Source: Arthrobacter sp. ISL-28 (GTDB lineage Bacteria > Actinomycetota > Actinomycetes > Actinomycetales > Micrococcaceae). From it: a stretch of DNA of 64,000 nt. Location: NCBI RefSeq assembly GCF_018613875.1, contig NZ_JAGGPJ010000001.1:106199-170198 (forward strand), written 5' to 3'. The notes beneath the pieces are model-generated. The model worked only from the letters and a program-made list of their open reading frames with translations. It did no database searches and was not told the origin of the DNA. This document shows, piece after piece, positions 4,565 to 64,000 of this stretch; the stretch's first letter is position 1, and each line of letters opens with the position of its first letter. Position numbers and translations under genes: made by a program.

Positions 4565-4958
4565 CAGGGCTCCCCTTTCAATGGCCGCACTGCCGGACAG
4601 ACTCAATATCGCGCGGACCTCCTGTGAAAACCTCGTCGCCCAATCCCCCGCATTTCGGTCGCCGAGCGGGGAAATGGGGGGTCTGGGGTGGGCCATCATC
4701 CCCATATGCGGGAGTATCAGGATTTCCATCAGGAAATCCCGGGGTTTTCACAAGCAACCGGGGAAGCAGGTTGTTTGGCGACCGCGCTGTTCCCTTAACC
4801 GCCGTGCCCTTAACCGCCGTGCCCCAACCGCCGTGCTCCTAACAGTTGCGCCCTTAACATCCGGATGGCCCGGGCGTAGTTTATTGGTGTCGGGACCCAT
4901 TCCGGCCCCTTCCCTCGTCAGCCGAAACCGGGCCGGAAGCAGACAGGAGGTATCAGCG
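4565..4958. other. 394-bp intergenic region with hairpin and 15-bp tandem repeats
   Basis: No convincing gene is present. A perfect 8-bp inverted repeat (GGATTTCC, 4-bp loop, GGAAATCC) lies at 4720-4739 and could be an operator or weak terminator. Five units of about 15 bp with consensus CGCCGTGCCCTTAAC fill 4785-4858. The Hsp20 gene starts at 4959 behind AGGAGG. The region must hold promoters for the leftward peptide gene and the rightward Hsp20 gene, but I see no clear -35/-10 pair. Confidence 0.6.
4785..4858. repeat. 15-bp tandem repeat, five units
   Basis: Units at 4785, 4800, 4815 (14 bp), 4829 and 4844, consensus CGCCGTGCCCTTAAC. The outer copies are the most divergent. The array is non-coding and 100 bp upstream of the Hsp20 start. 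Confidence 0.8.
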
Positions 4959-5396
4959 ATGGCCAACATTCTCCGCCGCGCCGGTGTGGACTTTCCGGAG
5001 CCCTTCCGTCGGTTCCTTGAAGGAGACCTCGACTCCTGGCTTCGCGTGGAGGAATTCCGCGAGGCCGGGACTCTGGTAGTCAAGGCCGAGGTCCCGGGGA
5101 TCGACCCGGACAACGACGTCGATATCACCTTGGTGGGCAACCAGTTGCAGATTTCAGTCAGGCATGAGGAAAAAAGCGAGCACAGGGGCAAAGAGGGGTA
5201 CCGCACGGAATTCCGCTACGGCACGTTTGCTCGAACGGTCACTCTGCCCGCTCCCGTGAATCAGGAGGACGTCCGCGCCTCTTACACGGACGGGATCCTG
5301 GAAGTCCGGATCCCGGTACCCGAAGAACCTGCCGCTGGGGCACGGAAGATCCCTGTCTCCCGAGGTTCCGGGGCGACGCCTGGTTCCGCAGTCTAG
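4959..5396 (+). CDS. Hsp20/alpha-crystallin family small heat-shock protein
   Basis: 145 residues; an ATP-independent holdase that binds unfolding proteins in the cytoplasm. The alpha-crystallin domain covers roughly residues 35-130, with the start TLVVKAEVPGIDPDNDVDIT, the conserved Arg/Phe strand YGTFARTVTLPAPV and the C-terminal DGILEVRIPVPEE. The I-x-V/I type tail motif is not clean (KIPVSRG). ATG 4959 has AGGAGG eight bases upstream; the open frame extends further 5' without a ribosome site. A second Hsp20 in the window (23753) is only distantly similar. Confidence 0.88.
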   Translation: MANILRRAGVDFPEPFRRFLEGDLDSWLRVEEFREAGTLVVKAEVPGIDPDNDVDITLVGNQLQISVRHEEKSEHRGKEGYRTEFRYGTFARTVTLPAPVNQEDVRASYTDGILEVRIPVPEEPAAGARKIPVSRGSGATPGSAV

Positions 5397-5523
5397 GAGC
5401 AAACGGCTGGCGGGCCGGTGAGGCGTCTCCGCACTCTTGAGTCTGCGTTGGATAGAGTCGACCTACACGTGACGCGGCCGCGCACGCTGGAAGCGCGGCT
5501 GCCCGGTCGGCGAAAGGGACGCA

Positions 5524-6027
5524 GTGTGTTGGATCAGACATACGCTCGCCCGGCGTATGGCGGTGATGCTTGCCGTTTTCACCTTGGCCGGAGGGATGGT
5601 TGGTTGCGGCGTCTCAATGCCAGCGGACCCGAATGGCACCTTGGAGCGGGTCTCTGGCGGGACCCTGCGCGTCGGCGCCACAGCCAACGGCAAGTGGGTC
5701 AGCCTCGGGCAGGGACAGGAACCTCGCGGAATCGAGCCCTCGCTGGTACGCTCCTTCGCCGCCACCATCGGTGCCACCCCTGAGTGGGTGACCGGAAGTG
5801 AGCAGGAGCTGACCAAGGCACTCAAGGAGGGCGAGCTGGATCTGGTGGTCGGCGGCTTTGCCGCCGAGACGCCGTGGATTACGCATGCGGGAACTACGCG
5901 GCCGTATACGGAATCGAAGGACGCCTTTGGCAAGACGGTGGAGCATGTACTTCTGGTGCGGCTGGGCGAAAACGCCTTTCTGCTGGCACTGGATCGCTTT
6001 CTTCTGGAACAGGACGTGCAGGGATGA
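5524..6027 (+). CDS. Half-size solute-binding-like lipoprotein
   Basis: 167 residues with a GTG start. The signal segment MLAVFTLAGGMVGC gives a lipobox Cys near residue 28. The mature part matches the first lobe of family 3 periplasmic-type binding proteins (GGTLRVGATANGKWVSL, GIEPSLVRSFAATIGATPEW, LDLVVGGFAAETPW) and then jumps to the usual C-terminal helix (GENAFLLALDRFLLEQ). The second lobe is absent. Its TGA overlaps the ATG of the following cation transporter gene (ATGA), so the pair were translated together. No ABC permease is nearby; it may be a sensor or accessory of the transporter. Confidence 0.65.
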   Translation: MCWIRHTLARRMAVMLAVFTLAGGMVGCGVSMPADPNGTLERVSGGTLRVGATANGKWVSLGQGQEPRGIEPSLVRSFAATIGATPEWVTGSEQELTKALKEGELDLVVGGFAAETPWITHAGTTRPYTESKDAFGKTVEHVLLVRLGENAFLLALDRFLLEQDVQG

Positions 6028-13172: not shown

Positions 13173-14321
13173 GTGACGCGCATCAGCAGAGTAGAAACCT
13201 TCCTCGTCCCGCCGCGCTGGCTGTTCGTCCGCGTCGAGACGGACAGCGGGATCGTGGGCTGGGGAGAGGCAAGCTGCGAGGGCCGCAGCGAAACCGTCCG
13301 CACCGCCGTCGGGCAGCTCTCCGAACTCCTGATCGGCCAGGACGCCCTCCGGATCGAGGACCACTGGCAGGTCATGACCAAGGGCTCCTTCTACCGAGGC
13401 GGACCCATCCTGGCCAGCGCCGTGTCCGGGCTGGACCAGGCGCTGTGGGACATCGCCGGCAAGCACTTCAACGCCCCGGTCCACCAGCTGCTCGGCGGCC
13501 CGGTCCGCGACCGCATCCGGATGTACGGCTGGGTGGGCGGGGACGAACCCAACGAGGTGGCCGACCAGATCAGCGCCCAGCTGGAAGTGGGCCTGACCGC
13601 CGTCAAAATGAACGCTAGCGGCCGGATGAGCCCGGTCGCCTCCGTCGCAGAGCTCGACGGCGTGGTCCGCCGGGTGGCCGCCGCCCGGGAAGTCCTGGGG
13701 GACCACCGGGACGTGGCCGTTGATTTCCATGGCCGCTTCAGCCTTGCCAACGCCCGCCGCGTGGCGCCGCTGCTGGAGCCGTACCGGCCGTTCTTTCTTG
13801 AGGAACCGGTGGTGCCGGAGAACACCCACCTGCTCCGCGAATTCACATCGTCCACCACGACGCCGGTGTCCACCGGTGAGCGGCTGTACAGCCGGCAGGA
13901 GTTCCTGCCCGCGCTGCAGGCCGGCATCGCGGTGGCCCAGCCCGACCTCTCCCATGCGGGCGGCATCACCGAAGTCCGCAAGATCGCCTCCCTCGCCGAG
14001 GTGTATGAGGTGCAACTGGCGCCGCATTGCCCCCTGGGTCCGCTGGCCCTGGCAGCCTGCCTTCAGGTGGGCTTCGCGACGCATAACTTCCTGATCCAGG
14101 AGCAGAGCATCGGCATCCACTACAACCAGGGCGCGGAAGTCCTGGACTATGTGGTGGACAAGACGCCGTTGAAGTTCGTGGACGGGCACATTGAACGGCT
14201 CACGGGACCTGGCCTGGGCATTGAGATTGACGAAGCGATTGTCCGCGCGGCCGACAAACAGGGCCATGCCTGGCGTGGCCCGGTGTGGCGGCACCCGGAC
14301 GGGTCGTTCGCCGAGTGGTGA
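13173..14321 (+). CDS. dgoD: D-galactonate dehydratase (enolase superfamily)
   Basis: 382 residues; removes water from D-galactonate to give 2-keto-3-deoxygalactonate, with Mg2+. Family marks of galactonate dehydratase are all visible: VDFHGRF (metal-binding Asp and catalytic His), LEEPV and GERLYS (two Glu metal ligands), DLSHAGGI and APHCPLGP with the second catalytic His, then QEQSIGIHYN. Start is GTG 13173 after TAGGGGT, ten bases behind the permease stop, so it belongs to the same operon. Specificity for galactonate over related acids is inferred from the motifs. Confidence 0.85.
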   Translation: MTRISRVETFLVPPRWLFVRVETDSGIVGWGEASCEGRSETVRTAVGQLSELLIGQDALRIEDHWQVMTKGSFYRGGPILASAVSGLDQALWDIAGKHFNAPVHQLLGGPVRDRIRMYGWVGGDEPNEVADQISAQLEVGLTAVKMNASGRMSPVASVAELDGVVRRVAAAREVLGDHRDVAVDFHGRFSLANARRVAPLLEPYRPFFLEEPVVPENTHLLREFTSSTTTPVSTGERLYSRQEFLPALQAGIAVAQPDLSHAGGITEVRKIASLAEVYEVQLAPHCPLGPLALAACLQVGFATHNFLIQEQSIGIHYNQGAEVLDYVVDKTPLKFVDGHIERLTGPGLGIEIDEAIVRAADKQGHAWRGPVWRHPDGSFAEW

Positions 14322-14331
14322 GCGGGTGGAG

Positions 14332-14360
14332 CCCCGAGTGATGAACCCCGACTGATGAAC
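14332..14360. repeat. Tandem duplication of 14-15 bp between two genes
   Basis: CCCCGAGTGATGAAC is followed directly by CCCGACTGATGAAC, just after the dehydratase stop and before the aldolase ribosome site. One of several such duplications in the window. Confidence 0.7.
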
Positions 14361-14377
14361 CCGGAAGGAGAGCGCTG

Positions 14378-15076
14378 ATGATCAAGCAAGACGTGGAGAG
14401 GCCCGCAATGGAGAACACCTTGACCCCTAAGTCCCTGCTGGTTGGAATCAGGGAAACGCGGCTCGTCGCGATCGTGCGCGGCACCGACGGCCCCGCCGCC
14501 GGACAAGCTGCCCTCGCCGCGATGGAGGAAGGGTTCCGCTTCGTTGAAATTGCACTGACCACGCCCGGCGCCCTTGGGGCCATCCGGGATGTGCGCGCAG
14601 CGGCACCCGCGGGCTGCTTTGTCGGGGCGGGGACGGTTTTGACGGCGCGGGATGTTGACGACGTCGCCGAGGCTGGAGCCCAGTTCACAGTGACGCCGGC
14701 CCTCACGGAGTCGATTGTGGAATCAGCACGGCGGGGGATCCCCGTGCTGGCCGGTGCACTGACCCCGAGCGAGGCCTTGGAGGCGATGAACTGCGGTGCC
14801 ACGGCGGTCAAACTCTTCCCTGCATCCATCGGCGGGCCGCGCTACCTCAAGGCGCTGCGCGACCCCTTTCCGGACATTCCCTTCATCGCCGTGGGCGGCG
14901 TGGGGCTGGAGGAAGCGGCCAGCTACTGGGAAGCCGGCGCAATCGGCGTTGGACTCGGCGGACCGCTGTTCGGTGACGCCGGCTCCGGCGGGGACCTGGC
15001 TCCGGTGCGTGAGCGCGCCCGCGGCTTCGTCAATCTGGCCGCCGACTTCGGCAGCCGGACGGCAGCGCTGCGGTGA
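14378..15076 (+). CDS. 2-keto-3-deoxy-6-phospho-sugar-acid aldolase (KDPG/KDPGal type)
   Basis: 232 residues, class I aldolase. It would split 2-keto-3-deoxy-6-phosphogalactonate or -gluconate into pyruvate and glyceraldehyde 3-phosphate. Typical sites: VEIALTTP with the catalytic Glu57, GAGTVL near 83-88, and the Schiff-base Lys145 in TAVKLFPAS. GGAAGGAGAG precedes ATG 14378. The C-terminal 30 residues (after GGPLFGD) are a little longer than in E. coli Eda. Its last codon overlaps the GTG of the kinase gene, which indicates coupled translation of the two consecutive pathway steps. Confidence 0.85.
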   Translation: MIKQDVERPAMENTLTPKSLLVGIRETRLVAIVRGTDGPAAGQAALAAMEEGFRFVEIALTTPGALGAIRDVRAAAPAGCFVGAGTVLTARDVDDVAEAGAQFTVTPALTESIVESARRGIPVLAGALTPSEALEAMNCGATAVKLFPASIGGPRYLKALRDPFPDIPFIAVGGVGLEEAASYWEAGAIGVGLGGPLFGDAGSGGDLAPVRERARGFVNLAADFGSRTAALR

Positions 15077-16086
15077 CGGCCGCCGTCGACCTCCTGACTA
15101 TGGGTGAATCCATGGTGTCGCTGCGATCCGACGGTCCGCTGTCGGCGGGAGGCAGCCTGTCGATGCACGTGGCCGGTGCCGAATCGAACGTGGCCGTCGG
15201 GGCGGCACGGCTGGGGCACCGTGTGCGGTGGGCCGGCGTGGTGGGCGCCGATCCGCACGGTGAGTTCATTCTGCGCCAACTGCGCTCCGAGGGTGTCGAG
15301 GTCTACCACCGGAAAGAGGCCGCTCGCAACACGGGGGTGATGTTCCTGGAGCAGCGGACTGCGGACGTCAGCCGTGCCTTCTACTACCGGGCCGGATCGG
15401 CCGGGTCCACGCTCAGCATCCCCGACGTACACGCAGCGCTCCGGGACGGCGCCAGAGCGGTCCACCTGACCGGAATCACGGCCGCCCTCAGCCCTGAGGC
15501 GCGGCGCGCAGTGGAGTACGCCGCCGAACGCGCCACCGGCGAGGGCATCCTGGTTTCGCTGGACGTCAACTACCGGGCCAAGCTCTGGTCACGGGATGAG
15601 GCGCGCGCCGCCCTCGCCCCGATCGCCCGGCACGCAGCGATCGTGATCGCCTCGGAGGATGAACTGGACCTTGTGGCGCCGGGTGCGGATCCGGGTCAGG
15701 ATCCCGATTCCGATCCGGATTCCGGCCCGGCAGCGGGCCTTTCCGACGCCGACGAGTTTCTCCTCGCGAAGCGGCTGCTGGAACAGGGCGTGCGGGAGGT
15801 GGTGGTCAAGCGGGGTGCCGCCGGTGCTGCCGCCTACACCGCCGACGGGCGGTGGGAGGTGCCCGCCGTGCCGGTGACCAGCATCGATACCGTCGGCGCC
15901 GGGGATGCCTTCACCGCCGGCTACCTCTCTGCGCTCCTCGACGGCGAAGACGTGGCCGGGCGGCTGCAGCGCGGCGCCGTCGCGGGAGCCTTCGCCGTCA
16001 GCACGGCCGGTGACTGGGAAGGCCTCCCGAGCACCGGGGAGCTCGCGCTGTTGGGCAACCACATTGCCGGCAGCACCCAACGCTAG
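15073..16086 (+). CDS. PfkB-family 2-keto-3-deoxy-sugar-acid kinase
   Basis: 337 residues. PfkB/ribokinase fold with N-terminal GESMVSLRS and GGSLSMHVAGAESNVAVGAA, and the C-terminal signature DTVGAGDAFTAGY whose Asp is the catalytic base. In this operon it most likely phosphorylates 2-keto-3-deoxygalactonate or -gluconate for the adjacent aldolase. Start is GTG 15073, overlapping the aldolase stop. Residues about 206-217 hold a 12-bp tandem repeat (15688-15723) coding DPGQ DPDS DPDS, a surface-loop insertion that most relatives lack. Confidence 0.82.
   Translation: MTAAVDLLTMGESMVSLRSDGPLSAGGSLSMHVAGAESNVAVGAARLGHRVRWAGVVGADPHGEFILRQLRSEGVEVYHRKEAARNTGVMFLEQRTADVSRAFYYRAGSAGSTLSIPDVHAALRDGARAVHLTGITAALSPEARRAVEYAAERATGEGILVSLDVNYRAKLWSRDEARAALAPIARHAAIVIASEDELDLVAPGADPGQDPDSDPDSGPAAGLSDADEFLLAKRLLEQGVREVVVKRGAAGAAAYTADGRWEVPAVPVTSIDTVGAGDAFTAGYLSALLDGEDVAGRLQRGAVAGAFAVSTAGDWEGLPSTGELALLGNHIAGSTQR
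15688..15723 (+). repeat. In-frame 12-bp tandem repeat inside the kinase gene
   Basis: Three units near GATCCGGATTCC encode DPGQ-DPDS-DPDS. The period is a multiple of three, so the frame is kept. Confidence 0.75.
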
Positions 16087-27418: not shown

Positions 27419-29080
27419 ATGCATACTTCAGCCAAAGAATTGGCCGCCAGGATCCCGCCGGGTTTCATCCTCGGGGTGGCCACGGCCGCGTTCCAGATCG
27501 AAGGCGCACTCGACGAGGACGGCCGGGGTAAAGCCGGGTGGGATGTTTTCGCCGCCAAGCCGGGCAACATTGTGGATGGCCATAGCCCCGCGGTGGCCTG
27601 CGACCACTACCACCGCATGCCCCAGGACGTGGCTCTCATGAAGGAGCTGGGCATCGATTCCTACCGGTTCTCGCTCTCCTGGCCCCGGATCCAGCCCGGC
27701 GGCCGCGGGCCCGTGAACCGGCCCGGGCTGGATTTCTATGACCGGCTGCTGGACGAACTCCTGGCCCACGGTATCTCGCCGATGGTGACCCTCTACCACT
27801 GGGACACGCCGCTGCCATTGGATGAGGCAGGCGGGTGGCTCAACAGGGATACCGCATACCGTTTGGGGGAGTTCGCCTCCATTGCCGCGGCCGCCTATGG
27901 GGACCGCGTGGCCCGCTGGGTGACCATTAATGAACCGGCAACGGTGACCACTAATGGCTATGCCCTGGGCCTGCATTCACCGGGATTGGCGGACTTCGCC
28001 AACGGGTTGCCGAGCGTCCACCACCAGCTGCTGGGCCATGGGCTTGCACTCCAGGCGCTGCGGGCCGCCAAGGTGCCGGGTGAAATCGGCATGACCAACG
28101 TGTACTCGCCCATGGTGCCGAATTCCGGAAACCCGTTGGATTGGATGAGCGCCGGGGCAATGGATGTGGCCCAAAACCGCCTGTACGCGGACCCGGTCCT
28201 CACAGGAAAGTACCCGGACCTCGTCCGCGTCGGAAAGTTCTTTTCGTCCTTTGAGCATCCGGATGAGGACATGGCCATCATTTCCCAGCCGCTGGATTTT
28301 TACGGGCTCAACTATTACATGCCGACTCGCGTGGCCACCGGGGGCGGGGAAAGCCCCGTTCCGGCAGCCATGGCGGAGGCGATGGGGGATGACCTGACCG
28401 GAGCCACGAATGGCGCTCCGCTGCACATAGCGCCATGGCCGGACACCGAAACCACCGCCTACGGCTGGCCCGTCAAGCCCGAATACATAGCCGTTGCGCT
28501 TAAGGAAATGGTCGAGCGCTATCCGAACCTCCCGCCGGTCATCATTACCGAGGGCGGGGCGAGCTTCGAGGACATCATCGTGAGGGACAAATCCACGAAC
28601 CGTTCATTCATTCCCGACGAGCGGCGCCTGCGGTACCTTTCCGACCACCTCGGTACCGCGCTCCGCGCCACGGCTCCCGGCGGTGAGGCCGAGGCCGTCG
28701 ACCTTCGTGGCTACTACGTGTGGTCCCTGATGGACAATTTCGAGTGGTCCGGCGGCTACAAACAGCCGTTCGGGCTGGTGCATGTGAACTTCGAGACGAT
28801 GGAGCGGACCCCTAAGGCGTCCTTCTTCTGGTTCCAGGAGCTTCTCGAAGAACGGAACCTGGCAGCCGCGGCAGGCGCCGCCGTCGCGGCGGCAACTGTT
28901 CCCGAAGCTGCTGTTCTCGACGATGCTGTTCTCGAAGGCGCCGTCCTCGAAGGTGCCGTTCCCGCTGGTGCCGTTGCAGACGCCGTCCCGTCGGCTGCCG
29001 GCGCGGCTGCTGAACCGGAGCTTCCGACGGTCGGGGAACGAGGAATGTCCGACGGCGGTGCGCAGCCGCCAGGGCTCTGA
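27419..29080 (+). CDS. Beta-glucosidase, glycoside hydrolase family 1, with repetitive tail
   Basis: 553 residues. Retaining glycosidase acting on beta-glucosides or galactosides. N-terminal signature PPGFILGVATAAFQIEGALD, acid/base Glu in TINEPATV, nucleophile Glu in IITEGGAS (usually ITENG), and the C-terminal GYYVWSLMDNFEWSGGY with substrate-binding Trp residues. No signal peptide, so cytoplasmic. AGAGGT precedes ATG 27419. The normal protein ends near FWFQELLEERNL; about 75 further residues are Ala/Val-rich and come largely from a 15-bp tandem repeat at 28895-28984. Confidence 0.9.
   Translation: MHTSAKELAARIPPGFILGVATAAFQIEGALDEDGRGKAGWDVFAAKPGNIVDGHSPAVACDHYHRMPQDVALMKELGIDSYRFSLSWPRIQPGGRGPVNRPGLDFYDRLLDELLAHGISPMVTLYHWDTPLPLDEAGGWLNRDTAYRLGEFASIAAAAYGDRVARWVTINEPATVTTNGYALGLHSPGLADFANGLPSVHHQLLGHGLALQALRAAKVPGEIGMTNVYSPMVPNSGNPLDWMSAGAMDVAQNRLYADPVLTGKYPDLVRVGKFFSSFEHPDEDMAIISQPLDFYGLNYYMPTRVATGGGESPVPAAMAEAMGDDLTGATNGAPLHIAPWPDTETTAYGWPVKPEYIAVALKEMVERYPNLPPVIITEGGASFEDIIVRDKSTNRSFIPDERRLRYLSDHLGTALRATAPGGEAEAVDLRGYYVWSLMDNFEWSGGYKQPFGLVHVNFETMERTPKASFFWFQELLEERNLAAAAGAAVAAATVPEAAVLDDAVLEGAVLEGAVPAGAVADAVPSAAGAAAEPELPTVGERGMSDGGAQPPGL
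28895..28984 (+). repeat. In-frame 15-bp tandem repeat in the glucosidase tail
   Basis: Six units with consensus GCTGTTCTCGAAGGT encode a pentapeptide pattern A-V-L-E-G. It extends the enzyme beyond the conserved family 1 end. Confidence 0.8.
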
Positions 29081-29095: not shown

Positions 29096-29239
29096 GATCA
29101 CTGCAAACAGTCCAGATCAGTTCAAACTGCTCAGATCAGTTCAAGCTGCTCAGATCAGTCTCAGATCACTGCAAACTGCTTAGATCAGTTCAAACTGCCC
29201 AGATCAGTTCAAACTGCTCAGATCAGTTCCAGCTGCTTG
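29096..29239. repeat. 19-bp tandem array grown from the 3' end of a gene
   Basis: Seven full units and one 11-bp partial, consensus GATCAGTTCAAACTGCTCA. The last unit (29221-29239) is the coding end of the App1-like gene and the unit at 29202-29220 supplies its stop codon. Each unit holds CAGTTTGAACTG, a short near-palindrome. The array fills the gap between the convergent glucosidase and App1-like genes. Confidence 0.9.
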
Positions 29240-34294: not shown

Positions 34295-34993
34295 ATGCCG
34301 AACCATCACGCCGCGGGCCTGCGCCGCAAGGGGGTCCTGTTCGACGTTGACGGAACGTTGATCGACTCCAACTACATCCATACGCTCGCCTGGTGGCAGG
34401 CCTTCCGCCAGTCTGACTTCGATGTTCCGATGGCACGCATCCACCGCTGCGTGGGAATGGGCGGTGCGCGCCTTGTGGACCACCTACTGCCGGAGGAGCG
34501 GGACAAGGACGGCGACGAAAATATCCTGTCCGCCCATGCCGGTATATTCGGAACGTACTGGCCCTCCCTGCGGCCCTTTGAGGGGGCGCGGGACTTGGTG
34601 GCCCAGTGCTGCGAGAGTGGTCTGGCGGTCGCGCTTGCGTCGTCCGCCCGGGACCAGGACCTCAAGGCCCTGCGCTCCAGTCTGTCCGCCGATTCCTTCA
34701 TTCACGCGGCCACAAGCGCCAATGACGCCAAGGAAAGCAAGCCGGAGCCGGACATCCTGATCGCGGCCCTGCATGCCGTGGGTCTCGACGCCTCCGATGC
34801 TGTTTTTGTGGGGGACGCCGTCTGGGACGTTTACGCGGCGGCCAGGCTCGACATCCCCACCATTGGGGTGACGTGCGGCGGCACCAGCGAGGCCGAATTG
34901 CGGGAGGCTGGCGCGATCGAAGTGTACCCAGGTCCCCTGGAGTTGCTGAATGGCCTCAGGGACAGTGCGATTGGCCGGCTCCTTGCCGGCTAG
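34295..34993 (+). CDS. HAD-superfamily phosphatase (beta-phosphoglucomutase-like)
   Basis: 232 residues. Nucleophile motif VLFDVDGTLIDSNYIH (near 14-29), motif II ALASSAR, Lys in KESKPEPD, and motif IV AVFVGDAVWDVYAA. An alpha-helical cap follows motif I, as in beta-phosphoglucomutase and phosphoglycolate phosphatase. Substrate is open. It sits 12 bases behind the YegP-like gene. The stop codon opens a 17-bp tandem duplication (34989-35019). Confidence 0.85.
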   Translation: MPNHHAAGLRRKGVLFDVDGTLIDSNYIHTLAWWQAFRQSDFDVPMARIHRCVGMGGARLVDHLLPEERDKDGDENILSAHAGIFGTYWPSLRPFEGARDLVAQCCESGLAVALASSARDQDLKALRSSLSADSFIHAATSANDAKESKPEPDILIAALHAVGLDASDAVFVGDAVWDVYAAARLDIPTIGVTCGGTSEAELREAGAIEVYPGPLELLNGLRDSAIGRLLAG

Positions 34994-35019
34994 GACGACC
35001 TGGTAGCTAGGACGACCTG
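34989..35019. repeat. 17-bp tandem duplication starting at a stop codon
   Basis: GCTAGGACGACCTG occurs at 34989-35002 and 35006-35019; the first copy contains the TAG of the HAD gene. Confidence 0.75.
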
Positions 35020-35027
35020 CTGATTGC

Positions 35028-35506: not shown

Positions 35507-35536
35507 TGTGCAGCTAGAGAAGTTGTGCAGCTAGAG
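35507..35536 (+). repeat. 17-bp tandem duplication carrying the ribosome binding site
   Basis: TGTGCAGCTAGAG occurs at 35507-35519 and 35524-35536. The second copy runs into GAGGAGGGG, the ribosome site of the dehydrogenase at 35547. Confidence 0.75.
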
Positions 35537-35546
35537 GAGGGGCGTC

Positions 35547-38003: not shown

Positions 38004-39230
38004 TCAGCACCACCTGTTCAACGTCTGTTCGGCAGCTTCCGCCATTTCCAACACCAAGGGATGGATGTCGGCGACGAACGGGGCCGGCGGATATGTCGGG
38101 GCCATGGCGATCTGGCGGGTGCCGTCGGCGCTCGTGAGGGCCACGGTGCCGTAGCCTTGCACATCCCCGATGCCCCCGTAATAGAAGTCATTGGTGCACG
38201 TGTCGTTCCAGCTCCACACGCCGAGCCTGAAGCCGGTGAACACGGGACCCTTCAACTGGTCGAAGGTTTCAGCTTTCAGGAGTTTCCCCTGCACCAGCGC
38301 GGTGTAGAAGGTGTTGACGTCGGCCACGGTCGAGATCATGCCGACGGAGGAACCGGCATAGACGGGCGGGTACGCCGCATCGAACCGCTCATCCTCGATG
38401 GTGATGTAGCCGTGAAGCAGCTCTTCGGGAGGGTTCCCCGGCCTGCTCATGAAGGTGCCCGTCAAACCCAGCGGCCGGATAATGTCGTCCCGGAGCACTT
38501 CGGCGAGAGGACGGCCCCGGACTTCCTCAAGCAGCAGCACCAGGGCCGCGTTGTTGCTGTTGGACCACTCGAAGCCCTGCGCGAGCTTCCGTTTCCAGGG
38601 TGTTTTCGCGGCCAGGGCAAGGCGGTCTTCGGGGGCCAGCCTCGAGGCGAACACGTCTTTGAGGGGTTTGGAACTCCACAGCGTCCTGGAGTAATCCGGC
38701 ATTCCCGATTCGTGGTCCAGGAGTTGGCGCACAGTCACGGGCTCCGGCGGATGCATGATGCCGTTGAACCTGGCCAGGTACTTGCTGACCGGCTCATCGA
38801 TCTGAATGCGACCCTCCTCGGCGAGCTTCAGCACTGAAACTGCCAGCATGGACGTCGTCAGTTGGGCCACGTGGGTGGCATCCGAGAGCTGCGCCGGCTG
38901 CCTGCTGTCCAGGTTCCGAACGCCCAGGGAGCGTGTCCATTCTGTGCGGCGGTTCCGGGCCTGGATCAGCAGGGCCGGGGCGCCCTCATCCATCATGTCC
39001 TGGCTGAACTCCTGGAGCCGGGCAAAGACGGCGGCGGACGAGGCGTCATCCGGCAGCTTTGGTGCCGGGGTGCAGCCTGCGGTGGCGGCCGCGAGCGCTG
39101 CAGCCGCCACGAACGCCAGAAGGCGCCGCACTGCGGAAGAGTGCCGGATTGGGGAAGAGTGCCGGATTAGGGAGCAGTGCCGGATTGCGGAATAGTTCCA
39201 GACAGCGGTGCGGTGCCAGGTCGCGGACAT
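38004..39230 (-). CDS. Serine-hydrolase/beta-lactamase-fold lipoprotein without catalytic motifs
   Basis: 408 residues. Basic N-terminus, hydrophobic stretch and lipobox AGC (near 52) place it outside, lipid-anchored. The body matches the class C beta-lactamase/PF00144 fold (QIDEPVSKYLARF, VTVRQLLDHESGMPDYSRTL, WSNSNNAALVLLLEEVRGRP, LGLTGTFM). At the position of the catalytic S-x-x-K, however, it reads QLTT; an SVLK occurs nine residues later, out of register. The Y-x-N motif is WSN. Probably a non-catalytic relative that binds cell-wall or other ligands. The first 35 residues contain four hexapeptide repeats. Confidence 0.72.
   Translation of the reverse strand: MSATWHRTAVWNYSAIRHCSLIRHSSPIRHSSAVRRLLAFVAAAALAAATAGCTPAPKLPDDASSAAVFARLQEFSQDMMDEGAPALLIQARNRRTEWTRSLGVRNLDSRQPAQLSDATHVAQLTTSMLAVSVLKLAEEGRIQIDEPVSKYLARFNGIMHPPEPVTVRQLLDHESGMPDYSRTLWSSKPLKDVFASRLAPEDRLALAAKTPWKRKLAQGFEWSNSNNAALVLLLEEVRGRPLAEVLRDDIIRPLGLTGTFMSRPGNPPEELLHGYITIEDERFDAAYPPVYAGSSVGMISTVADVNTFYTALVQGKLLKAETFDQLKGPVFTGFRLGVWSWNDTCTNDFYYGGIGDVQGYGTVALTSADGTRQIAMAPTYPPAPFVADIHPLVLEMAEAAEQTLNRWC
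39129..39200 (-). repeat. 18-bp in-frame repeat in the signal-peptide region
   Basis: About four units of 18 bp encode SAIRHC-SLIRHS-SPIRHS-SAVRRL just before the hydrophobic signal segment of the lipoprotein. They lengthen the basic n-region. Confidence 0.75.
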
Positions 39231-39434
39231 GCCATTAAGTCCTTAGTGCCGACCGGCAGGTGCACCAGGGTGGTCGCCGCCGGCACCACACATGTTCCTC
39301 GCACGCTCCCGGCCGGTCAACAGCAGCGGCGGCCCCGGAAACGCGCGGACGGCGCCGGAAATGCGGGATCGCCGGAAGCCTGCGGCCAACCCGCGGGCCT
39401 CCGGCGACCCCGTCGTCGGCGTCGAAAAGGCGAA

Positions 39435-47271: not shown

Positions 47272-47297
47272 GTCTGGCTAACAATGTCTGGCTAACA
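47272..47297. repeat. 14-bp tandem duplication upstream of the permease
   Basis: GTCTGGCTAACA at 47272-47283 and again at 47286-47297, 35-60 bp before the permease start. Confidence 0.65.
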
Positions 47298-47324
47298 GGT
47301 GTGGCAAACGTTTTGGGTGTGATT

Positions 47325-48689: not shown

Positions 48690-48878
48690 ATGTACCCGAA
48701 GGACCAGTTCCCTGTTGCACCGGCCCAGACAGCCGCCCCCTCAGTCCCGGAGTTCTACCTCCCCAGCGGGGGCGGAGCGGATCCGGATTTCTACCTTCCC
48801 GCGGACCGGATCCATGCACCGGGGCCCATCTCGCGCTGGATTCACCGCCTTCCGGTGTTCGGTCGCCGGCGCCCTTAG
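48690..48878 (+). CDS. Small protein with FYLP repeats
   Basis: 62 residues: MYPKDQFPVAPAQTAAPSVP, then EFYLPSGGGADPDFYLPADR and a basic C-terminus ending HRLPVFGRRRP. The FYLP motif occurs twice, 13 residues apart, in a Pro-rich, probably disordered chain. The ribosome site AAAGGAGGATCAG is near perfect, which makes this a real gene despite its size. No signal peptide. No family recognised. Confidence 0.6.
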   Translation: MYPKDQFPVAPAQTAAPSVPEFYLPSGGGADPDFYLPADRIHAPGPISRWIHRLPVFGRRRP

Positions 48879-48926
48879 GCGGCGCCCGCGACTAGGCGGC
48901 GCCCGCGACTAGGCGGCGACCGCGAC
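48876..48926. repeat. 17-bp tandem repeat starting at a stop codon
   Basis: Three units TAGGCGGCGCCCGCGAC (third with one change) at 48876, 48893 and 48910. The first three bases are the stop codon of the FYLP gene. Confidence 0.85.
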
Positions 48927-49021: not shown

Positions 49022-50266
49022 TCAGGACCCCGGGCGCCCCGGCCACTCCTTGCCGGCCCATGGGTCGTAATCAGCGATGAGCTCTTCCTGCGGCGGACGC
49101 TCCGCCTCGGGGACGTGCTGCAAGTTCACGCGCACCCTGTACCAGAGCGAGCTCGATCCGCGCATTCCGTCGACGAGCACATCGGCTGGGTGCAGGACGG
49201 GGACGAGGTCCGAATGCCGGGTCTTCCACTCGTCGAGGGCCGCGAGCGACTCGGGCTTGGTCCTTGTGCGGGCCACCTCGATGAGCGGCATCACCGACTG
49301 CCGGCGGCCCGAACCGTCTCCCCGGCGCGGCGGTTTCTCGGCCGGGCCGAGCTCGGCAGCCAAGGCGAGGAGTCCGTCGAGTGTGCCGACCGCGTCGTCG
49401 ATCCCGGAGTGAGGATCTCCCAGATCGGCGAACCGCTCGGGCACCGTGCGCACCGTGAACTGTTCTGGCCGGGTGGAGCGGACCTCGTCCCATGCGAGCG
49501 GCGTAGAGACCCGGGCATCGGGCAGGGGCCGGACTGAATATGCTGATGCCACCGTGCGGTCCTTTGCGTTCTGGTTGAAGTCGACGAACACACTCTCGCC
49601 GCGCTCCTCCTTCCACCACCGTGCCGTGGCGAGGCCCGGAGCGCGGTTCTCGACCTCGCGGGCGAGGGTCTCCGCGGCTAGCCGCACGTCGCGGTACGTC
49701 CACTGCGGGGTGATGCGCACCAGGATGTGGAGTCCCCGCGATCCGCTCGTTTTCGGCCATCCCACCAGCCCGACGTCGTCGAGCACTTCACTCGCGACAT
49801 ACGCGACGTCGACGATCTGGGACCAGTCCACTCCCGGCATCGGATCGAGGTCGACCCGCAGCTCGTCTGGGTGCTCGAGGTCCTCGGCCCGAACGGGATG
49901 CGGGTTGAGGTCGAGGCAGCCAAGATTCACCACCCATGCCAGCCCTGCGGCATCCCGGATGACGGCCTCCTCCGCCGACGTCCCCGACGCGTAGTGCAGC
50001 GTCGTCGTGTCGATGAAGTCGGGGTGGTTTTCGGGCACGCGCTTCTGAAAGAACGGCTCAGAGTCGATTCCCTTCGGGAAGCGCTTGAGCACCATGGGTC
50101 TACCGCCGGCGCCGCGCAGCGCACCCTCCGCGACCGCGAGGTAGTAGCGGACAAGGTCGAGCTTCGTCAGCCCGGGCTCTGGGAACACCACCTTGTCCGG
50201 ACTCGAGATGCGGACCTCAGTGCCCGCAATGGTGAGGATCTCGGCCGGGGTCTTCGACGGGTTCAT
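49022..50266 (-). CDS. ligD: Stand-alone LigD polymerase domain (non-homologous end joining type)
   Basis: 414 residues. The LigD polymerase/primase (AEP) domain fills the first 300: ISSPDKVVFPEPGLTKLDLV, RVDLDPMPGVDW with the two catalytic Asp, SGSRGLHILVR, RWWKEERGESVFVDFNQNAK. Ligase and phosphoesterase domains are absent; in Arthrobacter-type actinobacteria NHEJ functions can be split over separate genes. It would add nucleotides at broken ends together with Ku and a ligase, neither of which is here. It sits alone between purine genes, flanked by long hairpins at 48951 and 50343. Confidence 0.85.
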   Translation of the reverse strand: MNPSKTPAEILTIAGTEVRISSPDKVVFPEPGLTKLDLVRYYLAVAEGALRGAGGRPMVLKRFPKGIDSEPFFQKRVPENHPDFIDTTTLHYASGTSAEEAVIRDAAGLAWVVNLGCLDLNPHPVRAEDLEHPDELRVDLDPMPGVDWSQIVDVAYVASEVLDDVGLVGWPKTSGSRGLHILVRITPQWTYRDVRLAAETLAREVENRAPGLATARWWKEERGESVFVDFNQNAKDRTVASAYSVRPLPDARVSTPLAWDEVRSTRPEQFTVRTVPERFADLGDPHSGIDDAVGTLDGLLALAAELGPAEKPPRRGDGSGRRQSVMPLIEVARTRTKPESLAALDEWKTRHSDLVPVLHPADVLVDGMRGSSSLWYRVRVNLQHVPEAERPPQEELIADYDPWAGKEWPGRPGS

Positions 50267-56638: not shown

Positions 56639-59533
56639 ATGACCATCGAAATCAACGGAGTGGCCACAGATTCCCAGCCCCGCCCGGGGCAGTGCCTGCG
56701 CACCTTCCTCCGCGAGCAGGGCAACCTGGGCGTGAAGAAGGGCTGCGACGGCGGCGACTGCGGAGCCTGCACAGTCCACGTGGACGGCACGCCCGTACAC
56801 AGCTGCATCTACCCCGCGGTGCGCGCCGAAGGCCACACGGTCACCACCATCGAAGGGCTGGCTGCAGCCAACGGGAGTGCGTCCAACGGGAGTGCGTCCA
56901 ACAGCACTGCGGCCAACAGCACAGCCGCCGGTGCCCTCCACCCGATGCAGCAGCAGTTCCTGGACCGCCAGGGTTTCCAGTGCGGGTTCTGCACCGCCGG
57001 GATGATCATGACCGCGGCGACCTTCGACGGTCCCCAGAAGGACAACCTGCCGCGGAACCTCAAGGGGAATCTCTGCCGCTGCACGGGCTACCGGGCCATC
57101 GGGGATGCCGTGTGCGGCCATGCGGGACATCCGGCCCCGGAAGGCCCGGGGTCGGGCATCGCCGGCGAGGGCCAGCCGGAGCCCCAGCCCGGCCAGCTGG
57201 GCGATGACGTTCCGGCCCCGGCCAGCCGCGCCGTGGTCACCGGCCAGGCACGCTACACCCTGGACGTACCGGCCGGGGAACTGCCCGGGCTGCTGCACCT
57301 CAAGCTGCTGCGCTCGCCGCACGCCCATGCCCGGGTGCTCTCGATCGACAAGAGCGCGGCCCTGGACGTCCCCGGCGTCGTGGCCGTCTTCACCCATGAG
57401 GACGCGCCCGCCCAGCTGTTCTCCAGCGCCCAGCACGAGCTCTACACCGATGATCCCGACGACACGCGGCTCCTGGACGACGTGGTCCGGTTCCGCGGGC
57501 AGCGGGTTGCCGCCGTCGTGGCCGAATCGGTGGCGGCGGCGGAGGCGGGCGTCCGAGCGCTGACCGTTCAGTACCAGGAGCTGCCCGCCGTGTTCACGCC
57601 CCAGGAAGCCGTTCTGCCGGGGGCGCCGGCGATCCACGGCGACAAGGACGGCGCCGCGGCGAGGATCGCACGGCCGGAGCAGAACGTGGTGGCCGAACTG
57701 CACTCCGAACTCGGCAACGTGCGTGATGGTTTCGCGGAGGCCGATTTCATCCACGAGCAGACGTACCGGACGCAGCGGGTACAGCACGTGGCACTGGAGA
57801 CTCACGCAGCCATCGCTTCCGTGGATGGGGACGGCCGGCTGCACATCCGCACATCCAGCCAGGTCCCGTTCCTGGTCCGGCGAACCCTGTGCCGGCTGTT
57901 CGGCCTGCCGGAGGAGCAGGTCCACGTGGTGGCCGGCCGGGTGGGCGGCGGGTTCGGCGGCAAGCAGGAGGTGCTCACCGAGGACATCGCTGCGCTTGCG
58001 GCCCTGAAACTGAAGCGGCCGGTGCAGCTGGAGTTCACCCGTACCGAGCAGTTCATCGCCAGCACCACCCGGCATCCGTTCATCATCAAACTCAAGGCCG
58101 GCGCCGCGCGGGACGGCCGGCTCACGGCCCTGCAGCTCGAGGTGCTCACCGACACCGGGGCGTACGGGAATCACGCGCCGGGTGTCATGTTCCATGGCTG
58201 CGGCGAATCCCTCAGCGTGTACAAGTGCGCCAACAAGAAAGTTGATGCGCGCGCCGCGTACACCAACACTGTTCCCTCCGGCGCCTTCCGGGGATACGGC
58301 CTGAGCCAGATGATCTTCGCCATTGAATCCGGGATTGACGAGCTGGCCACCGGCATCGGCATGGACCCGCTCGAGTTCCGCCGCCGCAACATGGTCCGTG
58401 AGGGTGACGACATGCTCTCCACCCACGCCGAGCCGGAGGAGGACGTCCTCTACGGCAGCTACGGGCTGGACCAGTGCACACGGCTGGTGCAGGACGCCCT
58501 GGAGCGCGGCCGCGAGCGGTACCGTGCCGCCGGGCTGGATGACCTGAGGCCGGACTGGGTCACCGGCGAGGGCACGGCGCTGTCCATGATCGACACCGTC
58601 CCGCCGCGGGGGCACTTTGCCCATTCGAAGCTCCGGCTCCTTTCGGACGGAACGTACGCGGCCGACGTCGGGACCGCCGAATTCGGGAACGGCACCACCA
58701 CGGTGCACGCCCAGCTCGCGGCCACCGCGCTGTCCACCACGGCGGCGCGGGTCGCGGTGCGGCAGTCCGACACAGACCTGATCGAGCATGATACCGGCGC
58801 CTTCGGTTCGGCCGGCACCGTGGTGGGCGGCAAGGCGACGCTCGCCGCGGCAGAGGAATTGGCCGTCCGGATCAGGGCCTTTGCCGCCGGGATCCGCCAA
58901 GTCCAGGCGTCCGGCTGCGTCCTCGACGGCGATGCCGTGGTCTGTGAGGGGACGCGCGTGCCGCTGACGGAACTTGCCCAAGCGGCCGCAGATGCCGGCG
59001 TCGAAATTGTTGCGGAGGGCCGCTGGGGCGGCACGCCCCGGTCCGTCGCGTTCAACGTCCACGGCTTCCGGGTGGCGGTGAACACCGGGACGGGGGAGCT
59101 GCGGATTCTGCAGAGCGTGCAGGCGGCAGACGCCGGTGTGGTGGTCAATCCGCGCCAGTGCCGCGGCCAGATCGAGGGCGGGATCGCGCAGGCGCTGGGC
59201 GCAGCGTTGTACGAGGAGGTCAGGGTGGACGACGGCGGCCGGGTCACCACGGACATTCTGCGGCAGTACCACATCCCGTCCTTCGCGGACGTGCCGCGCA
59301 GTGAGGTGTACTTCGCCGAGACCAACGACCAACTCGGGCCGCTCGGGGCGAAGTCGATGAGCGAAAGTCCGTTCAACCCGGTGGCCCCGGCCCTGGCCAA
59401 TGCCATCAGGAACGCCACGGGTCTCCGCTTTGCCGAACTTCCTATTGCGCGGGACAAGATCTACCTGGGTCTGAAGGAAGCAGGGCTCGTCCCGCCCCTC
59501 CCGAGCCCCACTCTCTCAAGCAGCGCGGGATAA
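56639..59533 (+). CDS. Xanthine dehydrogenase, fused 2Fe-2S and molybdopterin subunit
   Basis: 964 residues. N-terminal 2Fe-2S domain with [18 protein letters not shown] and later Cys (first cluster), then [10 protein letters not shown] and [12 protein letters not shown] (second cluster). From about 195 the molybdopterin part: [42 protein letters not shown], and near the end [20 protein letters not shown] with the catalytic Glu region shifted relative to xanthine oxidase (GAKSMSE). The same fused layout is found in E. coli XdhD. A 15-bp tandem repeat inserts about 20 Asn/Ser/Ala residues between the two FeS clusters. Converts xanthine to urate. Confidence 0.87.
56868..56927 (+). repeat. In-frame 15-bp tandem repeat between the two FeS clusters
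   Basis: Four units; consensus CCAACGGGAGTGCGT in the first two and CCAACAGCACTGCGG in the last two. Encodes [20 protein letters not shown]. Confidence 0.85.
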
Positions 59534-59649
59534 CGGGGCCCGCTGGGTCCGGCCGGCGGGTGCCTAACGATCCTGCGTTGGCTGTCACGGCACACCCGTG
59601 GGGCGGGTTGGAGCGCGGGGTTCGGTGGGCGGCGTCATATAGTCGGAGG

Positions 59650-60630: not shown

Positions 60631-60719
60631 CCTCTGCTGTATGAGCTTGTCGTGAGTGAACCTGTCTGTGTGGGCCTGTCTTGTGTGAAGGGTAAGACTA
60701 AGGGGAAAGTGGGCGTTGC

Positions 60720-62014: not shown

Positions 62015-62162
62015 GGGCTCCACCTTAGGCCGTCCCGCCGCAGAGAAAGATTACCGGCTGGTAGGGGTAGTTACTCCAGTGAATGGCGGCTAACCTCGTA
62101 AATGTCGTGTTGGCAATTGGGGGTCACAGGCGGCTGCAAGGGCGCAGCCAGGAGGAGCGTAA

Positions 62163-62360
62163 ATGGCAGGAACATTCGAAATTGTAAGCGCGGGCCAGGG
62201 GACATTCCGGTTCCGGCTTACGGCGGACGATGGCACTGTGGTAGCGGTTTCACCCAGCTTTCCGAACATCAAGGCAGTGACTGCTGGCATCACCGCGGTG
62301 CGGGAGAACGCAGCCACCGGCTTCATCGTGGACCGGCGGACATCCCTCACCTCGACATAG
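62163..62360 (+). CDS. Short DUF1508 (YegP-like) protein
   Basis: 65 residues: AGTFEIVSAGQGTFRFRLTA, DDGTVVAVSPSFPNIKAVTA, GITAVRENAATGFIVDRRTS. A single YegP unit without tail. CAGGAGGAGCGTAA precedes ATG 62163. Shares the fold with the protein at 33986 but only moderate identity. Function unknown. A strong hairpin follows. Confidence 0.75.
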   Translation: MAGTFEIVSAGQGTFRFRLTADDGTVVAVSPSFPNIKAVTAGITAVRENAATGFIVDRRTSLTST

Positions 62361-62384
62361 ACCCAGGAAGACCCTTTCAGGAAA

Positions 62385-62428
62385 CGACGACGGCGGCCCT
62401 CACCAGAAGGTGGGGGCCGCCGTGGTCG
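62385..62428 (+). terminator. Terminator after the YegP-like gene
   Basis: A stem of about 20 bp with a few mismatches, core GACGGCGGCCC, closed by an AGAA loop. No U-run. Confidence 0.65.
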
Positions 62429-62452
62429 TGCGGGCGGAGGGGGAACTCCGCC

Positions 62453-62491
62453 GGTTGAGGCTGCCGAAAACCAATTTCGACAGGCTCAACC
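62453..62491. repeat. Second copy of the TCGACAGGCTCAA hairpin family
   Basis: GGTTGAGGCTGCCGAAA (62453) and TTTCGACAGGCTCAACC (62475) pair with two mismatches around a 5-base loop. It lies between the convergent YegP-like and aceE genes and shares its core with 47325-47360. Confidence 0.75.
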
Positions 62492-62498
62492 AGCACCG

Positions 62499-64000
62499 TC
62501 AGGCGTCTCCGCCGGCTCCTCCGGTGGTGCCTGCATTGACATCGAGCAGCTTGTACCGGTCCATCGCATACGCCGGAACTCCGGCGTCGACTTCGCCGCG
62601 GGATGCGAGCAGCTGGAGCGTCTTCACCACGATCGAGTGGGTGTCGTTTTTGAAGAAGCGGCGGGCGGCGGCGCGGGTGTCGGAGAAGCCGAAGCCGTCG
62701 GCGCCGAGCGAGGCGAACTCGTTCGGCAGGAACTGGCGGATCTGGTCCGGAACTGCCTTCATGTAGTCCGAGACCGCCACGACGGGCCCCTGGGCATCCG
62801 CGAGCTGCCGGGCGACAAACGGAACGCGTGCCGGTTCGCCCGGGTTCAGGAAGGCTTCTTCCTCCGCGGCGAGCCCGTCGCGGCGCAGCTCGTTCCAGGA
62901 CGTCACGGACCAGACGTCCGCGGAGACGCCCCAGTCCTCGGCCAGGATCCGCTGGGCCTCGATGGCCCAGGGAACGGACACGCCGGAGGCAAGGATCTGG
63001 CTCTTGGGACCGTCAATTCCCGACGTCGATACACGGTGAATGCCTTTCAGTACACCTTCGATGTCGAGGTTCTCGGGTTCGGCGGGCTGGGTGATGGGCT
63101 CGTTGTAGACCGTGATGTAGTACATGAGGTTCCGGTCGGTATCTGTTCCCGTGGCATCTGTTCCCGTGGTGGAGTCGGGGCCGTACATGCGCTCGATGCC
63201 GTCGCGGACGATGTGGCCCATCTCGTACCCGTAGGCGGGGTCGTAGGTGACTACGGCGGGGTTGGTGGAGGCGAGCAGCGGGGAGTGGCCGTCGGCGTGC
63301 TGCAGGCCTTCGCCGGTGAGGGTGGTCCGGCCGGCGGTGGCGCCGATGATGAAGCCGCGGGTCATCTGGTCCGCGGCGGCCCAGAAGGCGTCGCCGGTGC
63401 GCTGGAAGCCGAACATGGAGTAGAACACGTAGACCGGGACCAGCGGCACGCCGTGGGTGGCGTAGGCGGTGCCGGCGGCGGTGAAGGCTGCCACGGCGCC
63501 GGCTTCGTTGATGCCGGGGTGGATCAGCTGGCCCTGCGCGGATTCCTTGTAGGCCAGCACGAGGTCGCGGTCCACGGACAGGTAGTTCTGGCCCCCGGGG
63601 TTGTAGATCTTCGCTGTGGGGAAGAACGCGTCCATGCCAAAGGTGCGCGATTCGTCCGGCACGATGGGGACAATCCGGTGCCCGAAGTTCTTGTCGCGGA
63701 GCAGGTCCTTGAGCAGCCGGACGAACGCCATGGTGGTGGCGGCCTGCTGCTTGCCCGAGCCGCGCTTGGCGACCTCAAAGGTCTTGGACTCGGGCTGCTC
63801 TACGGGAGCGTGGTTCGGGCGCCGCTCGGGCAGGAAGCCACCCAGCGCCCTTCTTCTCTCGAGGAGGTACGCGATCTCGGGAGCGTCCGGCCCTGGATGG
63901 AAGTAGGGCGGGCTGTAGGGGTTCTCTTCCAATTGGGCATCAGAGATCGGAATCCTCAGATAGTCCCTGAACTCCTTGAGGTCGTCCAGGGTGAGTTTCT
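62499..64000 (-). CDS. aceE: Pyruvate dehydrogenase E1 component (5' end outside window)
   Basis: About 500 C-terminal residues of homodimeric AceE, which decarboxylates pyruvate with thiamine diphosphate. The visible frame begins with [20 protein letters not shown] at the right edge, then [58 protein letters not shown] and [14 protein letters not shown] (cofactor-binding and active-site regions of the second half). A 15-bp duplication (63141-63170) adds TGTDATGTD in the loop before [11 protein letters not shown]. The ThDP diphosphate-binding part lies beyond the edge. Confidence 0.92.
63141..63170 (-). repeat. In-frame 15-bp duplication in aceE
   Basis: ATCTGTTCCCGTGGC followed by ATCTGTTCCCGTGGT on the plus strand; adds one pentapeptide copy to a surface loop. 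Confidence 0.75.

Follow-up and report, generated by a model that had tools for sequence, protein, structure and literature searches.

Short tandem arrays in a 64-kb stretch of an Arthrobacter genome are of ordinary density and probably reflect replication slippage filtered by selection

Tandem repeats in the spacers of an actinobacterium are familiar from the mycobacterial interspersed repetitive units (MIRUs), which may overlap stop codons. MIRUs are longer than the units considered here and form one dispersed family. Bacterial minisatellites, or variable-number tandem repeats (VNTRs), are described in a review as formed by slipped-strand mispairing (PMC3899988).

Here we analysed twelve short tandem arrays reported in an earlier note on a stretch of 64,000 nucleotides from Arthrobacter sp. 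ISL-28, referred to as the window. All twelve are present at the claimed places and periods. Tandem Repeats Finder (TRF, score of at least 30 for recovering the window's arrays) called nine of them (4792, 14332, 15679/15700, 28896, 29096, 39135, 48876, 56862 and 63129), and at the remaining three sites a direct repeat is exact over 14 bp (34989, period 17), 13 bp (35507, period 17) and 12 bp (47272, period 14). Gene calls come from our own caller script rather than from the annotation. The arrays are:

4792..4858, no strand: 15 bp x4.5 array in the spacer that precedes an HSP20-like gene (4959-5396, +) (TRF, gene call, Pfam PF00011)
14332..14362, no strand: 14 bp x2.2 array starting 11 bp past the stop of an MR/MLE-family gene (13173-14321, +) (TRF)
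15679..15730, + strand: 12 bp array in a PfkB-family kinase gene (15073-16086), period divisible by three (TRF, gene call)
28896..28974, + strand: 15 bp array of 4-5 copies that keeps the frame of a GH1 glycosidase gene (27419-29080) and lies in its C-terminal tail (TRF)
29096..29237, - strand: degenerate 19 bp x7 array in the spacer of two converging genes (TRF)
34989..35022, + strand: 17 bp x1.8 duplication in a convergent spacer, spanning the stop (TAG) of a HAD-family hydrolase gene (34295-34993)
35507..35540, + strand: 17 bp x2 duplication holding the ribosome-binding region of an alcohol-dehydrogenase-family gene (35547-36722)
39135..39217, - strand: 18 bp x3.4 array in the N-terminal part of the gene for a beta-lactamase-fold protein (38004-39230), period divisible by three (TRF)
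47272..47303, no strand: two-copy direct repeat with a period of 14 bp, lying 34-65 bp upstream of a xanthine/uracil permease gene (45757-47238, -)
48876..48926, + strand: nearly perfect 17 bp x3 array starting at the TAG stop of a 62-aa ORF with weak support (48690-48878) (TRF)
56862..56922, + strand: 15 bp x4 array in a molybdenum hydroxylase (xanthine-dehydrogenase-like) gene (56639-59533), period divisible by three (TRF)
63129..63169, - strand: 15 bp x2.7 array in a pyruvate-dehydrogenase-E1-like gene (62499-63932) (TRF, Pfam)

The 62-aa ORF at 48690-48878 has no Pfam match, and the 64-kb window holds no tRNAs and no Rfam families at gathering score.

These head-to-tail copies of about 10-25 bp far exceed the chance level. 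At a score of at least 50 and periods of 10-25 bp the window holds 9 arrays, compared with a mean of 0.47 and a maximum of 3 in 60 dinucleotide shuffles, about 19-fold; one additional single shuffle gave 3 arrays. Furthermore, 13 exact runs of at least 12 bp with periods of 10-25 are found, against a shuffle mean of 0.17 and a maximum of 2 (60 shuffles). The excess extends to the sampled genome, with 136 arrays in 1,250 kb versus 12, 11 and 7 in three shuffles, and to its genes, with 80 in-gene arrays versus 10, 21, 17, 11 and 14 after codon shuffling within genes. The own-genome sample is 850 kb (position profile, spacer-type, tail-copy, stop-decay and frame-filter counts) or 1,250 kb (density and expected-count, codon-shuffle and in-gene-decile analyses) out of 5,038 kb, and classification rules vary slightly among the position-profile, frame-filter and expected-count analyses.

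The earlier note took the density of the arrays to be unusual and read it as the mark of hyperactive slippage, or of a repair defect, specific to this lineage. The excess over shuffles fits this reading, as do a mild local excess of strong arrays (6 with a score of at least 70 versus 2.3 expected, P = 0.028), the absence of a MutS match in the genome and in three relatives, with NucS and Ku present, and the 3 arrays found in 200 kb of E. coli K-12. The density itself does not bear it out. With 127 arrays in the remaining 1,186 kb sampled, the rest of the genome predicts 6.9 arrays per 64 kb, and the 9 in the window are compatible with this (Poisson P = 0.25); blocks of about 60 kb (n = 20) carry 3-9 arrays each. 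The window's density is also within the range of ten genomes of the genus (3.7-12.5 arrays per 100 kb), of eight further genomes of the order Micrococcales (3.3-42.5) and of eight genomes of the phylum (5-30). Moreover, E. coli shuffles are lower too (0, 1 and 0 arrays in 200 kb), so that the ratio to chance is of a similar order, at very small numbers, and with 8 arrays in 80 kb the two MutS-bearing phylum genomes are not separable, at this small sample size, from the six genomes without MutS (54 in 320 kb). We therefore reject lineage-specific hyperactivity, which we consider very improbable, on the density comparison; about ten short tandem arrays per 100 kb are the normal background for Arthrobacter. 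Of the outcomes that the earlier note named as refuting, we observe a count no higher than in other Micrococcales, but neither a count at the level of shuffled sequence nor a lack of positional bias.

For the position analyses we also used a set of named loci, which represent one orthologous neighbourhood and are therefore not independent. Locus L128 was excluded from this set in the density count and all later counts, and L137 from the density count only; the Arthrobacter loci L143 and L147 were kept inside the Sinomonas/Agreia set for the density count and excluded from later counts.

Inside genes, the filtering by reading frame proposed in the earlier note is real: as in minisatellites, in-gene periods are largely divisible by three (244 of 272 arrays, versus 47 of 109 spacer arrays). 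Arrays at stops resemble the latter, with a period divisible by three in 27 of 74. In-gene arrays cluster towards both gene ends: of 203, 30 lie in the first tenth of the gene and 36 in the last.

The arrays were further said to start at stop codons in many cases, which is overstated. Only three of the twelve overlap a called stop (29096, 34989 and 48876); 14332 begins 11 bp past one, five arrays lie in genes and four spacer arrays touch no stop. Likewise, of the several said to begin at a stop or carry a ribosome site, one array alone (35507) has such a site. A bias to gene ends does exist, as array cover over 2,731 genes reaches its maximum of 3.0% at 20-39 bp past stops and its minimum of 0.25% at starts. 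This bias is not aimed at the stop codon itself, since other spacer arrays are more enriched than stop-spanning ones in five of six actinobacterial samples.

Such a pattern raises the question of whether gene ends, above all convergent spacers, are true hot spots of formation, for example through collisions of transcription with replication or of opposing transcription. The cover peak directly behind stops would agree with this, and so would the named loci, in which arrays cover 7.0% of convergent spacers versus 1.8% of tandem and 1.6% of divergent ones (spacers below 10 or above 600 bp excluded from all comparisons of spacer types). However, the own genome and genus sample shows little difference (an array in 9 of 209 convergent versus 25 of 605 tandem spacers), and in the order and Sinomonas/Agreia sample tandem cover exceeds convergent cover (6.1% versus 4.0%). 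In the window's own genome, moreover, stop-spanning arrays are less enriched (13 versus 7.4 expected) than other spacer arrays (40 versus 13.4), and relaxed constraint predicts nearly the same pattern. Divergent spacers are poor in arrays in the own genome and genus sample (0.35% cover versus 1.25% in tandem spacers) and in the order and Sinomonas/Agreia sample (1.77% versus 6.14%); the named loci show no such paucity (1.60% versus 1.78%). Start-spanning arrays fall below the expected number in the own genome (3 versus 5.2), the genus sample (0 versus 2.4) and the named loci (3 versus 6.8), whereas Sinomonas/Agreia shows no depletion (3 versus 3.3). Stop-spanning arrays are without enrichment in the phylum sample (4 versus 4.4 expected) and number 31 versus 8.0 expected in the named loci, which are orthologous and not independent. 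That last excess is greater than simple neutrality needs.

Several window arrays show turnover among relatives, compared here between species, mostly at about 70-90% DNA identity. In the GH1 tail of A. pascens (L072) the units are similar and the period is again 15 bp, but the array is shorter than in the window's genome; A. globiformis (L077) has a different 15-bp array there and L073-L075 have none. By eye, the 35507 duplication is a single copy in L077. TRF at score 30 found no array at the 39135 site in L072-L075, nor in the spacers corresponding to the 14332 array in five genomes (G002, G010, G018, G022 and G024). The units of the 14332 array look by eye like the end of the MR/MLE-family gene.

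At 29096 the unit is the last 19 nt of an APP1-type phosphatase gene (29218-30279, -), stop codon included. We found that about 1-1.5% of Arthrobacter genes are followed by a further copy of the gene's 3' end. The three samples gave 15 of 1,438, 18 of 1,216 and 12 of 670 genes, versus 0.03%, 0.08% and 0.12% with permuted partners. Start-side copies occur at 5 genes in the order and Sinomonas/Agreia sample (0.77% versus 0.12% by chance). At one mostly convergent spacer, the six tail-copy states found in 52 species require six changes on the tree, at least four of them forced, and this repeated change is a further point for faster formation at gene ends. The 29096 spacer is not supported as a special hot spot: TRF finds an array in 9 of 51 orthologous spacers (53 named loci entered, of which two gave no gene; 5 of the 51 are not convergent), versus 13.3% of convergent spacers (22 of 166 in the named loci, with the 29096 site dropped except in three loci that have the site elsewhere). 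Weighing both sides, we regard true hot spots as unlikely.

Tail copies could also be retained as a reserve of stop codons downstream of the gene, in several frames, given that stop-spanning units bring the stop along and that 47 of 74 periods at stops are not divisible by three, which places it in other frames. A similar share of spacer arrays without stops has such periods, however (62 of 109), and the stops in the copies decay: of 44 candidate copies from 3,311 genes, 15 keep the stop as it is, 2 have another stop in its place and 27 have lost it. Some of these 27 are chance matches. Ho and Hurst 2019 (PMC6764699) report no compelling evidence of selection for additional stops in eubacteria. 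We rejected the fail-safe role on the decay of these stops and give it almost no credence.

The reading that we consider likely is generic replication slippage combined with selective filtering, rather than a mechanism specific to the lineage. Under this reading, duplications of 10-25 bp would arise genome-wide by slippage between short direct repeats and would persist where their cost is low, that is in frame within variable protein regions and in the spacers that follow stops, where they are presumably neutral. A duplication spanning a stop would leave the protein unchanged because the first copy retains the stop; gene tails could therefore be duplicated into the downstream spacer at no cost, with later decay of the copies. 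Further rounds on an existing duplication may yield the arrays of 4-7 copies. Both the frame filter and the gene-end bias would then follow from selective tolerance. The shortfall of start-spanning arrays in three samples also fits this reading. Against it speak the divergent spacers of the named loci, the undepleted starts and the start-side copies in the samples with Sinomonas/Agreia, the strong excess of stop-spanning arrays in the named loci and their lack of enrichment in the phylum sample.

Consistent with slippage, 8 of 24 filtered exact two-copy duplications have at least 3 bp of extra homology at the junction, versus 7.5% in simulations with random breakpoints, although the counts are low, and two of the 8 proved to be arrays of the window that have more than two copies, which leaves 6 of 22. 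Before filtering for a third copy, the proportion is 33 of 65 versus 8.0% simulated. Junction homology is lacking in nine of the 24 and amounts to 1 bp in seven, so a share of the duplications may arise otherwise, for example by end joining, Ku being present.

The one point worth pursuing is the recurrent copying of gene ends downstream in different species, which supplies spacer sequence and possible C-terminal extensions. We found no description of gene-tail copies among the top-ranked matches to fixed terms in an open-access library. A bolder and rather unlikely proposal is that the gene tails of Micrococcales serve as nurseries of tandem repeats, with faster formation at gene ends, above all at convergent ones, so that copies of the last codons and stop follow about one gene in a hundred and recur at a given spacer in different species. 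Loss of the first stop would then turn these copies into material from which new protein tails could form. A promoter, operator or terminator function in such repeats needs other evidence.

Compared with the described systems, the arrays share with MIRUs a tandem arrangement in actinobacterial spacers that may overlap stops. Unlike MIRUs, they consist of short units that by eye look unrelated from site to site, and a genome-wide search with the largest array gave one match only, so that no dispersed family is seen and the earlier description of a process rather than a mobile repeat is supported. With additional, fail-safe stop codons (treated in Ho and Hurst 2019, PMC6764699) they share extra stops behind the primary stop, but here these accompany the tail duplication and are not preserved. 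With minisatellites and VNTRs they share a period of 10-25 bp, degenerate copies, the frame filter, turnover among relatives and a proposed origin in slippage; unlike these, no role in phase variation was seen for the window arrays, and the comparison made here is between species. Taken together, the arrays are a further instance of the known short tandem repeat, or minisatellite, kind.

All twelve tandem arrays listed in the earlier note were found in the window, nine with Tandem Repeats Finder (TRF) at a score of at least 30 and the other three as perfect 12-14 bp direct repeats with the spacing reported. For density counts we required a TRF score of at least 50 and a period of 10-25 (stricter set, score of at least 70). 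Nine arrays of the window pass this criterion, well above chance: 60 dinucleotide shuffles yield 0.47 on average and never more than 3. The source genome is a draft of 5.04 Mb, in which the window spans positions 106199-170198 of contig C11; at the phosphatase gene (29218-30279, minus strand), its nearest named relatives, Arthrobacter pascens DSM 20545 and Arthrobacter sp. Bi83, share 91% protein identity. The remaining 1,186 kb sampled of this genome contain 127 arrays, which predicts 6.9 per 64 kb (9 observed, Poisson P = 0.25). The stricter set comprises 6 arrays versus 2.3 expected (P = 0.028); any local enrichment for strong arrays is therefore mild at most. Densities elsewhere, individually rough because only 20-90 kb was sampled per genome, are 3.7-12.5 arrays per 100 kb in ten genomes of the genus, 3.3-42.5 in eight other genomes of the order (Micrococcales), 5-30 in eight further genomes of the phylum, 13.1 in the named Arthrobacter/Pseudarthrobacter loci (one orthologous neighbourhood) and 24.6 in named Sinomonas, Agreia and similar loci. 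E. coli K-12 has 1.5 (3 in 200 kb; shuffles 0, 1, 0), too few for a positional statement (two lie in spacers, one in a gene and none at a stop). The twelve-array observation is thus sound in detail and unsound in its claim of unusual density.

The proposed reading-frame filter is well supported. Of 272 in-gene arrays, 244 have a period divisible by three, compared with 47/109 in spacers and 27/74 at stops. Furthermore, 80 in-gene arrays are present versus 10-21 after codon shuffling of the genes (five shuffles). The first tenth of the gene holds 30 of 203 in-gene arrays and the last tenth 36; we assume that proteins vary more in these parts. The in-gene arrays of the window, followed by other features noted in it, are:

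28896, in-gene array in a C-terminal tail
39135, in-gene array in an N-terminal region
15679, 56862 and 63129, arrays inside three other genes
27419-29080, plus strand, GH1 glycosidase gene with a repeat-built tail (28896-29080) whose length and units differ between relatives (L072, L077 versus L073-L075)
13173-16086, plus strand, three neighbouring genes (MR/MLE-family enzyme, KDPG/KHG-type aldolase, PfkB kinase) that may form a cluster for sugar-acid degradation
39326-39380, CGCCGGAA repeat, common by eye to relatives L072-L075

In the GH1 tail, a shorter 15-bp array built of similar units is found in A. pascens (L072) and a 15-bp array that differs in A. globiformis (L077); arrays are missing there from L073, L074 and L075. 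Across species, arrays in this tail were gained, lost or altered in length, and the tail offers a small model of tail growth through in-frame duplication. The 39135 array has no TRF counterpart in L072-L075, nor has the 14332 array in the spacers of genomes G002, G010, G018, G022 and G024. In L077 one finds, by eye, one copy in place of the 35507 ribosome-site duplication. The CGCCGGAA repeat is, by eye, an inverted-repeat arm in L072, L074 and L075, where the inverted repeat resembles a terminator following the gene at 39435-40247 (minus strand).

The suggested bias to gene ends is supported. Across 2,731 genes, array cover peaks at 3.0% at 20-39 bp past the stop and is about 0.25% around the start, but the stop codon did not emerge as the target: in every one of the six samples except the named loci, enrichment is stronger for spacer-only arrays than for stop-spanning ones.

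Table. Arrays observed versus expected, with arrays relocated at random 200 times per sample
Own genome: stop-spanning 13 vs 7.4 (reached in 6/200 relocations); spacer-only 40 vs 13.4
Genus: stop-spanning 6 vs 3.2 (19/200); spacer-only 15 vs 6.4
Named loci: stop-spanning 31 vs 8.0 (0/200); spacer-only 37 vs 11.6
Order: stop-spanning 6 vs 2.9 (19/200); spacer-only 16 vs 5.2
Sinomonas/Agreia: stop-spanning 13 vs 4.6 (0/200); spacer-only 22 vs 5.5
Phylum: stop-spanning 4 vs 4.4 (no enrichment); spacer-only 14 vs 5.0

Cover of convergent, tandem and divergent spacers is 1.51, 1.25 and 0.35% in the own genome plus genus sample, 6.97, 1.78 and 1.60% in the named loci, and 3.95, 6.14 and 1.77% in the order plus Sinomonas/Agreia sample. 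Accordingly, two of the three samples show array-poor divergent spacers, and just one shows prominent convergent spacers. On the simplest reading, duplications are tolerated in spacers that lack a promoter, and the stop codon as such is not the target.

We compared the final 15 nt of every gene to its downstream sequence (at least 12 matching positions, period 8-30 bp), using tails paired with the downstream sequence of other genes as control. Tail copies were found in 15 of 1,438 genes of this genome and the genus (control 0.03%), 18/1,216 in the named loci (0.08%) and 12/670 in the order plus Sinomonas/Agreia (0.12%). The start-side equivalents number 1 (0.07% vs 0.03%), 0 (control 0.09%) and 5 genes (0.77% vs 0.12%), the last indicating that start-side copies exist outside Arthrobacter. 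The 29096 array is itself such a case: the final 19 nt of the phosphatase gene recur in it in some seven degenerate copies. The same spacer carries 16-bp phosphatase-tail copies in Arthrobacter oryzae DSM 25586 and, instead, 18-bp copies derived from the tail of the facing gene in A. globiformis. On a protein tree of 52 rows (tail copy scored at 11 or more of 15 positions), the six tail-copy rows need six state changes, gains and losses counted alike; well-supported branches force four or more of these. Cross-pairing lets 51 of 2,652 tails pass, about one row expected by chance; the L118 row resembles such a case by eye. Stops are not kept in the copies: among 44 candidates 15 have the same stop, 2 another and 27 none, the last class being inflated by chance matches that the loose threshold lets in. 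The most interesting point left over from the analysis is that gene tails are copied again and again, which neutrality probably explains.

Junction homology of at least 3 bp was found in 33 of 65 exact two-copy duplications versus 8.0% of simulated random-breakpoint duplications. With a filter against a decayed third copy it was found in 8/24 versus 7.5%; the filter is imperfect, as two of the eight are window arrays with more copies (4792 and 48876), and dropping both leaves 6/22. Homology is absent in 9 of the 24. These junctions point to, short of proving, slippage between short direct repeats, by which the two-copy duplications would have formed. The arrays form a normal background of duplications, likely born of slippage and filtered by selection. 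One repeat could instead be a regulator site:

47272-47303, direct repeat, 12 bp exact at spacing 14, 34-65 bp upstream of a xanthine/uracil permease gene

This permease gene adjoins a uricase gene. Roughly 95 bp separate the nearly perfect 17 bp x3 array at 48876-48926 from a further gene:

49022-50266, minus strand, gene with a LigD primase-polymerase domain (PF21686, E 1.8e-89; DNA_primase_S the sole other domain at E <= 0.001)

A MutS match is absent from 53 of 60 phylum genomes. Arrays number 8 in 80 kb of two MutS-bearing genomes versus 54 in 320 kb of six MutS-less ones, too little to separate them. All four genomes drawn from one phylum family, f27 (G048, G063, G078, G090), give a strong MutS match, and the MutS bearers of this family and the MutS-less phylum genomes form a natural contrast for repair effects on repeats. 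The Arthrobacter genome itself has NucS and Ku and no MutS match. NucS repair is described in PMC8228993 as unable to correct indels, and, according to PMC11109965, NucS loss in Streptomyces did not considerably change the indel rate (9 vs 19 indels).
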